21,384 bases of DNA from a virus: positions 1 through 21,384 of IMG/VR virus record IMGVR_UViG_3300043436_001000. One strand, 5' to 3'. Position 1 is the first letter of the stretch, and every line of letters begins with the position of its first letter. A model generated the notes under the pieces. That model did no database searches. It saw nothing but the letters and a program-made list of their open reading frames with translations, and was not told where the DNA came from. The translations under genes were made by a program, and so were the position numbers. This document shows, one piece after another, positions 1,155 through 18,320 of this stretch.

Positions 1155-1208
1155 TACATACATACTAGCACAGAATTTAAAAAGTTAAAAACTTTTCTTG
1201 CTAGTATC
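1155..1208 (-). promoter_or_regulatory. nested inverted repeat with extended -10 box before the helicase gene
   Basis: This 54-bp gap holds a perfect 9-bp inverted repeat, ATACTAGCA at 1162-1170 and TGCTAGTAT at 1199-1207. Inside it is a second perfect 7-bp repeat, AAAAGTT at 1180-1186 and AACTTTT at 1190-1196. Read on the minus strand, the arm next to the gene is TGCTAGTAT, which fits an extended -10 (TGnTAnnnT), with a poor -35 (TTTAAC) about 16 nt upstream. Transcription from it would begin within a base or two of the ATG at 1154, giving a leaderless or nearly leaderless mRNA. The dyad could be an operator or an RNA hairpin. The symmetry is seen directly; the promoter and operator roles are inference. 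Confidence 0.45.
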
Positions 1209-1682
1209 TCAACTATCAAAGAGTTTAGTTGGTATCCAGCCGATTTTCACTAAGCGTAGCACGGCGTGTCGGATTGCGTCAAGTGCGTGTCCTTCGCCAC
1301 TTTTGTGCCAATAGCCTATTTTCTTTAACTTAGCGTTATCAAACATAGCCTTAGCATCTGCTGGAGATTGGAATATTATATCTTCAGGATTCATGCCATG
1401 GTCCATAAGGATTTGTTTTAATATACCAATCTGCTCTAGAGAGTAAGGAGCCTGAGAGTTTCTAACAGTCTGTGCGTTGATAGTGAATCTTTCACACACA
1501 ATGTCGATTGGCATACTGAACTCAATAGAAGAGCGTAGAGCAATTCTGATTGGCTCGGCATATTGATTTTGTTGGTACTCGCCAGACCAGAGAAGTCTAG
1601 GCTCATAACCTTTTTCGTATTCAAACAAACAAATACCACTGGCTTTGCCGGGGTCTACGCTAAGAATAAGTTTTTTACTCAT
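1209..1682 (-). CDS. RuvC-like Holliday junction resolvase
   Basis: A 157-residue protein with an RNase H/RuvC fold signature. VDPG near the N-terminus supplies D10, CERF supplies E64, and the C-terminal helix HALDAIRHA supplies H132 and D135. This matches the acidic centre of RuvC, in which the third site may be His as in Thermus RuvC. It would resolve Holliday or branched DNA before packaging or during recombination. The start is the ATG at 1682, which lies inside the last codons of the polymerase gene and overlaps it by 8 bp (ATGAGTAA), so translation is probably coupled. The frame is open further upstream to 1739, but that part runs inside the polymerase gene and does not look like RuvC. 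The length matches bacterial RuvC (about 160-175 aa). The family call is firm; the exact substrate is inferred. Confidence 0.85.
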   Translation of the reverse strand: MSKKLILSVDPGKASGICLFEYEKGYEPRLLWSGEYQQNQYAEPIRIALRSSIEFSMPIDIVCERFTINAQTVRNSQAPYSLEQIGILKQILMDHGMNPEDIIFQSPADAKAMFDNAKLKKIGYWHKSGEGHALDAIRHAVLRLVKIGWIPTKLFDS

Positions 1683-3492
1683 CGTACTTAGCACCCCAGT
1701 TTTCAAATGGACCATCGACTCCAGCAGTAAGTGGGACATCCCAACCCTCTGTTGTAGTCATACATTCACGAACAGTCTGCATAATCTCCTCAACGTTATC
1801 TTTAGGTACGTTCAAAACAATTTCATCGTGTACTGGGACGATTAGGTACTCAGTCAAATCTGCTTGGTCTAGTTTTACTAAATTCTGCTTAAAGATTTCT
1901 GCAGCACTTGCTTGAATCAAATAGTTAGTCAGTGAATAAACTCGGTCATCATCACAAGGCAATCTACGACCAGTCTTAGTTTTGACGTAGCCAACACCCT
2001 CAGAGCGTAGACGTTTCATACCAGCGTCTTCAATTGCCTGAGCCATGTAACGCACACCCGGATAGTTTTGGTCAAAAGCATCTACTACCGATTTCATTTG
2101 TGCATCGGACACCCCAGCAGTCAGAGCCATAGTTGTTACACCAGCACCATACAACTTTCCATAGACCACACCTTTGATAAGTTTGCGTCGGTTGTCTGAC
2201 TTTTGTGCTGTCGGGTCTTGATATACCTGACGCATAATTTCGGTAAACACGTCTCCACCAGTTCGGTCAGCCTCATTAAATAGATTGATTAGGTCTTGGT
2301 CTTGACTGAGGTTTGCTGTAAGGCGAAACTCTACTTGGTCGAGGTCGGAAGAGATGATTAGATGGTCATCGTCTTTAGGGATAAACGCACGACGGACAGT
2401 AGCATCTCCAGACGGCAAAGTCTGAAGTGCAGGGTCAGTGATAGACATACGACCAGTTCGTGCAGCAAGAGTACGAATAGACGGATGGACAATACCATTG
2501 ATGTTTCCTTCAAGGAAGTTCTTAAAGTATGTATTAGCCAACTTGTCAGCCTTACGTTGCTTTAGGACAACTTCAGCCAACTGCTGTACATCTGGAGTAC
2601 CATCACGAACTAGCATCTTTAGTTGGTCTTTAGATGCAGACTTCTGACCAGACGGAGTTGTCTCCGTAATGTCAGCACCCATCTTTTCCAACTGTCTTAC
2701 AAGTTGAATGTTGCTAGTGATAGACATACCGTATGTGTCTTGCCCCCACTTGCGAACGCTCTCACCGTATTGATTCAACTCATCAAACTTTTTCTGTGAG
2801 TAGTCGAGGTCTACACGAGCACCGTTAAGTTCCATACGAGTGGCAATCTTGCGAGTAGCCATTTCTAGTTCATAAGGAGTGGAGTAAATTCCACCAGTGC
2901 CACACTTCTCCCAAAACTGCTCAAACAGTCTCATGGTCAGTACAGGGTCTAAAGCACCATAAGCCCAGTAGGGTTCAAAGTTTACTGGCACAGTACCCCA
3001 AGTCCAACCATTTTCGTGCAAAGAGTTGTCTAAGTGAGTTTGAAGTGCAGCAGCCTTGCCGTCTACATACTGAGCAGTCAGTTTCTTAAGTGCAGCCGAA
3101 CCAATAGGGTCGATAATCTGCGACATAATCATTGTGTCGTGAGCACGTTGCCAAGGAATAGACCAGCGAGAGTGAATCTCAAACCACTTAGCCTCAAACG
3201 CAATGTTGTGGCAGACAATAGGTCCATCAAACTTTTCCATTGCCTCGTAGAACACTCCAGACCATTCATCCCAAGGTATGGCCCAACCAGTCTGAGCGTC
3301 TCCAACTTGCACGAGACGTAACTTACCGTGCCAAGGAGACAAGGCATCTTTAGTAGGTCTGCCAGCAAGTTCACCAGTTTCGGTGTCTATGGCAATAGCG
3401 TTCATAGGTCGACGTTGGCTTAGCCAAGTCATAAACTTTTCGGCTTTTTCTACGCTGTCTACAAGATTGAGTTGCACATCGGCAAGGCTCAT
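1675..3492 (-). CDS. family A (PolA-type) DNA polymerase with 3'-5' exonuclease
   Basis: 605 residues, consisting of a DEDDy proofreading domain followed by a Pol I-type polymerase; the 5'-3' exonuclease domain of cellular Pol I is absent. Exo I is IDTE (D36, E38), Exo II is HNIAFE (N96, E100 where Asp is usual), and Exo III is Y178-x3-D182. Polymerase motifs are TGRMS..P.LQTLP (346-360), motif A SSDLDQVEFR (D383, E388, R390), motif B RRKLIKGVVYGKLYG (R436, K440, Y444, Y448) and motif C VPVHDE (H555, D556, E557). All catalytic residues needed for synthesis are present. Y444 in the O-helix corresponds to Tyr526 of T7 polymerase, where E. coli Pol I has Phe762. A Shine-Dalgarno-like AAGGACGG precedes the ATG at 3492. 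This is probably the replicative polymerase of the phage. Confidence 0.97.
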   Translation of the reverse strand: MSLADVQLNLVDSVEKAEKFMTWLSQRRPMNAIAIDTETGELAGRPTKDALSPWHGKLRLVQVGDAQTGWAIPWDEWSGVFYEAMEKFDGPIVCHNIAFEAKWFEIHSRWSIPWQRAHDTMIMSQIIDPIGSAALKKLTAQYVDGKAAALQTHLDNSLHENGWTWGTVPVNFEPYWAYGALDPVLTMRLFEQFWEKCGTGGIYSTPYELEMATRKIATRMELNGARVDLDYSQKKFDELNQYGESVRKWGQDTYGMSITSNIQLVRQLEKMGADITETTPSGQKSASKDQLKMLVRDGTPDVQQLAEVVLKQRKADKLANTYFKNFLEGNINGIVHPSIRTLAARTGRMSITDPALQTLPSGDATVRRAFIPKDDDHLIISSDLDQVEFRLTANLSQDQDLINLFNEADRTGGDVFTEIMRQVYQDPTAQKSDNRRKLIKGVVYGKLYGAGVTTMALTAGVSDAQMKSVVDAFDQNYPGVRYMAQAIEDAGMKRLRSEGVGYVKTKTGRRLPCDDDRVYSLTNYLIQASAAEIFKQNLVKLDQADLTEYLIVPVHDEIVLNVPKDNVEEIMQTVRECMTTTEGWDVPLTAGVDGPFENWGAKYDE

Positions 3493-17912: not shown

Positions 17913-18320
17913 CTAGCCACCAATAGGTGCGTCTAAGACTCCACCAAACGGGTCACTATCATCTGCACTAAAGTCAGTAGGTGGAAAATAAGGTTTTACA
18001 TTACTTCTTTGAGTAGGGTCAAACGCTTTAAAGTCTTCAGTTTCTTCTACATCAAACTCATTGCTTTTTTGAAAAACTGTGTACCTGTATGGAGCGTTGT
18101 ACATACTTTTCCAAATAGCAACTCTGCGAGTTTCTACCATCTGTGCTTGCTCTTGAGAAACGTAATTAATATCTTCCTCATATATGTAATGGATAACGTC
18201 AAGCATGTCCGCTGCATCCATTTCTGCCAATTTAACTTGGCTCATCAAGGCTTTACCGTTTACGTAATACCAGAGGTCTAACGCCCAAGTTATTAGACTT
18301 CTGGTTGCTCTTCCGGGCGG
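17913..18320 (-). CDS. tail assembly chaperone, frameshift-encoded C-terminal part (T of GT)
   Basis: This frame is open from 18320 to the TAG at 17913-17915. Its first ATG is near 18245, but the coding-like sequence continues upstream of it (TWALDLWYYVNGKALM), so an independent start is unlikely and no Shine-Dalgarno precedes the ATG. It lies in the -1 frame relative to the shorter chaperone frame that ends at 18293, the classical lambda G/GT arrangement just before the tape measure. The visible protein is helical (LAEMDAADMLDVIHYIYEED), with an acidic middle and a Pro/Asp-rich tail (FPPTDFSADDSDPFGGVLD). It would be made only as a fusion to the first frame, at a minor ratio, and would guide tail-tube polymerisation on the tape measure. 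The family call rests on position and frame layout. Confidence 0.85.
   Translation of the reverse strand, partial: PPGRATRSLITWALDLWYYVNGKALMSQVKLAEMDAADMLDVIHYIYEEDINYVSQEQAQMVETRRVAIWKSMYNAPYRYTVFQKSNEFDVEETEDFKAFDPTQRSNVKPYFPPTDFSADDSDPFGGVLDAPIGG
18270..18320 (-). promoter_or_regulatory. -1 programmed ribosomal frameshift cassette
   Basis: The overlap of the two chaperone frames is short: the -1 frame is closed by TGA at 18323-18321, and the zero frame stops with TAA at 18295-18293. The best slip site between them is C CCG GAA (18317-18311), where the proline tRNA can re-pair from CCG to CCC. After 6 bases (18310-18305) comes a 12-bp stem, CCAGAAGTCTAA (18304-18293) with TTAGACCTCTGG (18281-18270), which has 11 pairs, one A-C mismatch and an 11-nt loop. 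A heptamer, a short spacer and a stem-loop are the classical stimulatory layout. The heptamer is non-canonical, since the A-site GAA to GGA shift is imperfect. Confidence 0.7.

Follow-up and report, generated by a model that had tools for sequence, protein, structure and literature searches.

What role does the inverted repeat between the RuvC-like resolvase gene and the DNA helicase gene of this virus play? The window, i.e. the whole stretch of DNA analysed here, is a virus record of 21,384 bases in which polA (1675–3492), the RuvC-like gene (1209–1739) and the helicase gene (3–1133) follow each other in this order on the minus strand. All features of the window described below lie on that strand. 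The RuvC-like gene is an open reading frame just upstream of the helicase gene, and the gene at the same place in relatives is annotated as a RuvC-like resolvase. The helicase gene, which has lost its 3′ end at the end of the contig, matches PHROG 62 (DNA helicase, E = 2.9e-58). The gap between the two genes reads GATACTAGCAAGAAAAGTTTTTAACTTTTTAAATTCTGTGCTAGTATGTATGTA.

The stop codon of the RuvC-like gene adjoins the upstream (left) half-site ATACTAGCA (residues 1199–1207), which together with its flanks reads GATACTAGCAAGAAA (1194–1208). The gene-proximal (right) half-site TGCTAGTAT (1162–1170) is at the same time the extended -10 box of the helicase gene. Both half-sites form a perfect 9-bp inverted repeat separated by an AT-rich spacer of 28 bp (1171–1198). 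Within the spacer (1180–1196) lies a perfect 7-bp inner repeat, AAAAGTT/AACTTTT (1180–1186 and 1190–1196). An earlier note on this DNA had described two perfect, nested repeats. Both repeats are real, but the term "nested" is loose, since they do not share a centre: the outer repeat has its axis at 1184.5 and the inner one at 1188. By itself, the dyad of the window is barely above chance. Of 3,000 shuffles of the gap that preserved its dinucleotides, 36 gave a perfect repeat of at least 9 bp. Over its full length the window contains three repeats with an arm of 9 and a loop of 3–40, with 4.1 expected, i.e. no excess. The statistical case is built on the relatives and not on this sequence alone.

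Relatives of the helicase were collected in three scans, from which the best 80 of 216, the best 80 of 93 and the best 80 of 151 loci were kept. Five cultured phages, DSL-LC01 and the window itself were added, for a total of 247 sources with 242 usable upstream regions, 126 of them distinct. The dyad was counted in 117 distinct regions, with the isolates and DSL-LC01 left out. An inverted TACTA...TAGTA pair was found in 86 of these 117 helicase-upstream regions of related phage contigs. The spacing is 40 bp in 42 cases, 39 bp in 35, 38 bp in seven, and 37 bp and 41 bp in one case each, so that 77 of the 86 dyads are spaced by 39 or 40 bp. The length of the spacer is tightly kept among the relatives, whereas its sequence is not (A+T about 80%). 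Perfect inner repeats of at least 7 bp occur in 13 of the 86 spacers compared with about two in base-shuffled ones; the inner repeat is a minority feature among relatives. The comparison of the gap in related phages that had been proposed for this locus has thus been carried out, and the dyad is kept. The earlier note had named a lack of conservation as something that would refute its reading, and the comparison does not refute it on this point.

Many of the other 31 regions carry different arms, which are 36–41 bp apart by each motif's own register: TATTATCA/TGATAATA, TACGGT/ACCGTA, TATGGAC/GTCCATA and CTAACAC/GTGTTAG. The arms TACTTAGA, TATTATCA, TACGGT, TATGGAC, CTAACAC and TATTAGCA substitute for TACTATC on both sides, and the helicase dyad of DSL-LC01 is TACTTAGA/TCTAAGTA with a distance of 40 bp. 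The arms vary by clade and tend to change together on both sides. Among 44 non-redundant sequences of the TACTA type, arm position 6 agrees in 31, compared with 15.7 by permutation (0 of 20,000; phylogeny not modelled), and positions 7–9 show no excess of covariation in the same set. A clear dyad is absent in L142 and L290 and weak in L144/L147. In the cultured phages Pumpernickel, Zooman, Cece, Atuin and Sixama no dyad with a spacing of 39/40 bp was seen by eye.

The relatives also correct the start of the helicase gene. We read the start codon in 117 distinct regions that extend 100 nt or more upstream, allowing the start to shift by up to two codons. It is GTG in 65, ATG in 48 and TTG in four, and it is preceded by a Shine-Dalgarno-like sequence in 112. 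In the window, the conserved start is the GTG at 1131–1133, which is the start of the homologues and agrees with the annotated starts in Pumpernickel and DSL-LC01. The Shine-Dalgarno-like sequence AAAGGA (1143–1148) is found nine bases before it. The earlier note had placed the start at an ATG (1154) without a Shine-Dalgarno sequence and had proposed a leaderless mRNA. This ATG is in frame with the helicase but not conserved as a start: the position reads ATG in 41 of 94 placeable regions and is in frame in 31. The end of the gap at 1155 is a wrong boundary, as it was drawn from the wrong start codon. The conserved GTG, 21 nt further downstream and behind a Shine-Dalgarno-like sequence, and the unconserved ATG make it unlikely that the helicase mRNA is leaderless, and we discarded such a start. 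Transcription would instead begin at about 1154–1156, leaving a leader of about 21–23 nt.

Extended -10 promoters are characterized by the motif TGnTAnnnT. Of 118 distinct upstream regions, 115 contain this motif no more than 75 nt from the start, compared with 11% of shuffles, and TGCTAGTAT fits it, so the assignment of an extended -10 box made previously is well borne out. No -35 element is conserved in the relatives; the TAGTAT columns of this comparison are fixed by the way the sequences were selected. As in other promoters of this class, TG-n-TAGTAT occurs here without a conserved -35, the difference being that it is embedded in a conserved inverted element. The right arm comprises TG followed by TAGTAT in 76 of the 86 dyad regions, and these have no other extended -10. 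The remaining ten lack the TG. All ten carry a separate extended -10 downstream of an intact dyad, beginning 10 bp (seven regions) or 12 bp (three regions) after the start of TAGTAT. Since the dyad is kept even where its right arm is no extended -10, it is more than a promoter. Judged from these regions, the promoter and the dyad serve functions that can be separated, although the two mostly have bases in common. Counts of TAGTAT and of the half-site, taken genome-wide in relatives, do not exceed the Markov expectation, which rules out a general phage promoter motif.

In the ruvC-helicase gap of Microbacterium phage Pumpernickel (L001), TGCTAGTAT is kept, the leader contains GGAGG and the left half-site is absent. 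A TTGCAA box is found about 17–18 bp upstream of TGCTAGTAT.

Could the element be a promoter only, with TGCTAGTAT as extended -10 and a left arm that is either fortuitous or belongs to a back-to-back (bidirectional) promoter? The near-universal extended -10 and the arrangement in Pumpernickel, with its upstream box and without a left arm, are what such a reading expects. It appears improbable to us, however, because the dyad persists in all ten regions with a separate -10, because on the left side TATGGAC, TACGGT and similar arms do not read like a -10, and because the half-sites keep a fixed distance and agree in their arms with a second locus.

The contig of the window is too short to contain this second locus, and the two-locus result comes from relatives. 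In relatives of 120–137 kb the helicase dyad recurs at one other place, often in two or three tandem copies, namely in the divergent intergenic region before the gene of a zinc-cluster protein. Strong dyad pairs are present at only these two loci in the genomes scanned. Of 104 loci with relatives of the zinc protein, 80 were kept, and they bear out this second location. Perfect 8-bp inverted pairs at 37–42 bp were observed in 29 of 55 non-redundant zinc-gene upstream regions compared with 4.0 in Markov sequences. This excess is only a relative one, because inverted repeats with other spacings are abundant there too (11–21 of 55 per spacing class).

To compare the two loci, the helicase arms, which were chosen by eye, of 22 two-locus genomes were scored against the zinc region (1,500 bp upstream) of every genome; the comparison covers contigs that include the zinc gene (G014 and G017–G020 have none). 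The own-genome score is at least 14 of 16 in 20 of 22 genomes, with lower values for G007 (12) and L066/L403 (13). The mean own-genome match is 14.8 of 16 compared with 13.0 after permutation (0 of 200,000; relatedness not modelled). With one genome for each of seven variants, the values are 15.6 and 12.7 (31 of 200,000). In G008, the spelling of the left arm is identical at both loci. The zinc locus of G007 carries GATACTAGCAAAAAAA, its helicase spelling, as one good half-site with a degenerate partner. As a forward check we used G021, which was outside the set of 22 genomes. Its left helicase arm TACTAGGT predicted the arms at the zinc locus, where TACTAGGT..ACCTAGTA was found with 16 of 16 positions, plus a second tandem copy.

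Long inverted repeats whose sequence is specific to the clade are also present in the zinc-gene intergenic region and enclose a TATACGCGTA-like core (G008 66900–67010, G001 63650–63760, W01 18100–18230, G015 55100–55200). This core region might serve as an origin, belong to a structured leader RNA or act as a further control site; a search of seven zinc loci gave no Rfam match. In several of the genomes examined, a similar small protein of about 78–99 amino acids is encoded divergently from the zinc gene (G008 66364–66600, G005 110759–111034, G016 95911–96174).

A replication-initiator or partition site of the iteron type, with the zinc-gene region as origin, would be in keeping with these tandem copies among long inverted repeats with a TACGCGTA-like core and with one copy in the replication operon. 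We regard it as quite unlikely. The helicase copy is firmly tied to a promoter. In most of ten genomes the cumulative GC skew does not turn at either locus, although this is a weak test for phages and was uninformative as to an origin.

Based on the conservation and on the matched arms, we consider it likely that the element is an operator covering the helicase promoter, and that a single sequence-specific DNA-binding protein encoded by the phage acts on it at two loci, probably as a repressor. Unlinked loci whose spacers are unrelated agree in the spelling of their arms, which argues for a protein that acts in trans and recognizes the half-sites, and the fixed spacing of 39/40 bp argues for a rigid complex on the DNA. 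Binding should exclude RNA polymerase, since the -10 box lies in or beside the right half-site and the would-be -35 region is inside the dyad. The earlier note had guessed that the dyad may be a repressor site. This was the best among its ideas, and it agrees with the conservation in relatives, the fixed spacing and the identical arms at the second locus.

We propose the following mechanism. The operator would span about 50 bp and overlie the helicase gene's extended -10 promoter with two inverted half-sites 39–40 bp apart. A single protein encoded by the phage would recognize both this site and the divergent intergenic region of the zinc gene. Once bound, it would block RNA polymerase and hence most likely act as a repressor. 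In this way it could coordinate in time the expression of the zinc-protein region and of the helicase portion of the replication operon. Protein binding, the phage origin of the protein and repression are all inferred from sequence comparison.

DSL-LC01 has been called apparently lysogenic by its authors (PMC10611076), so that the regulator might repress early genes or confer immunity. The text of that paper mentions no promoter, operator or inverted repeat, and no report of this element was found among literature listings and the opening parts of abstracts.

Which protein could bind the operator? By position, the zinc protein is the nearest candidate. Members of the family (L346–L430, e.g. 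L420:1914–2369, with the CxCGH motif) comprise about 150–190 amino acids with invariant CxCGH..C..CxC and C..C..C..C clusters. Pfam gave no family for the first member and only scattered weak matches among 47 members, the best being a Gp3-like recombination directionality factor (E = 0.0071, 2 of 47 members). There was no PHROGs relative of note, no PDB sequence match and no relative in genome_contigs. The structure was predicted with confidence (pLDDT 87.8), and the model had no fold match in the PDB. Tentatively, and with clear reservations, the zinc protein might itself be the regulator. It would then represent a new DNA-binding family that spans the 40 bp between two half-sites, acts as repressor of both its own region and the helicase and has a specificity that co-evolves with the operator. 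If so, many orthogonal specificities would exist among these actinophages.

Proteins of the XRE type (HTH_3) are encoded in 10 of 14 genomes. Their absence in DSL-LC01, G005, G013 and G036 rules them out as the universal regulator. One phage-encoded XRE protein (G015 56081–56371) is located close to an operator array and resembles the actinobacterial ClgR regulator. This ClgR-like protein was rejected as the regulator, as matches were found in only 5 of 16 genomes.

That no phage DNA-binding protein was found in every genome (HTH_3 in 10 of 14), together with arms that vary by phage clade, could point to a regulator of the host, with the arms following the host rather than a phage protein. We give this little credence: each phage genome has only two loci, both at phage genes, and the array adjoins a gene family without relatives in genome_contigs. 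Very unlikely, and rejected as the main reading, is an RNA hairpin in a ruvC-helicase read-through transcript (attenuator, processing site or terminator): the arms covary and the minus-strand RNA folds with -14.2 kcal/mol, but the z-score (-1.92) is weak, the terminator scan lists none at the site and no U run follows the dyad (which also goes against the earlier suggestion that it ends the upstream transcript), the window has no Rfam match at the gathering score, a loop does not require the fixed 39/40 spacing, clades with a separate -10 further downstream have the dyad ahead of their promoter, and the arm spelling common to the second, unlinked locus would be left unexplained.

As far as can be judged from the two loci, the element is probably a phage operator whose half-sites are paired in an unusual geometry and which shows matched changes at both places. 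If this reading holds, a two-locus control circuit has been recognized from sequence alone in a large, mostly uncultured group of actinophages of about 120–137 kb. The approximately eight arm variants matched at two unlinked loci would constitute a natural set of operator specificities and offer a direct route to the cognate protein. For the helicase itself, the analysis provides a corrected start and removes the claimed leaderless mRNA.

The divergent operator regions of lambda-type phages are well-known phage switch operators. Like the element described here, they combine operators repeated in tandem between divergent genes with an additional operator at a different promoter, and they have symmetric half-sites and overlap with a -10 box. 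Other examples of phage switch operators are those of TP901-1 and phage 13 (PMC7250872, PMC8516035). In contrast to such operators, the half-sites here are 39–40 bp apart instead of forming one compact palindrome, the second site is located in a replication operon, and the cognate regulator is only a candidate. NrdR boxes likewise consist of two boxes at a helix-phased distance (spacers of 14–17 or 24–27 bp) that overlap a promoter (PMC12051234). The present half-sites differ in being variable between clades, and their targets are the helicase and zinc-protein genes rather than ribonucleotide reductase; unlike NrdR, the zinc protein has no ATP-cone match in Pfam. Judged by targets and arm variation, the element is not an NrdR box pair. 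The stoperators of Cluster A mycobacteriophages are described as asymmetric 13-bp sites at many places in the genome (PMC6550527; see also PMC9283540). Here, strong pairs of inverted half-sites occur at two loci only, and half-site counts are at or below the Markov expectation. What both have in common is that they are operators of actinophages, and that their sequence as well as the specificity of the repressor diverges from clade to clade.
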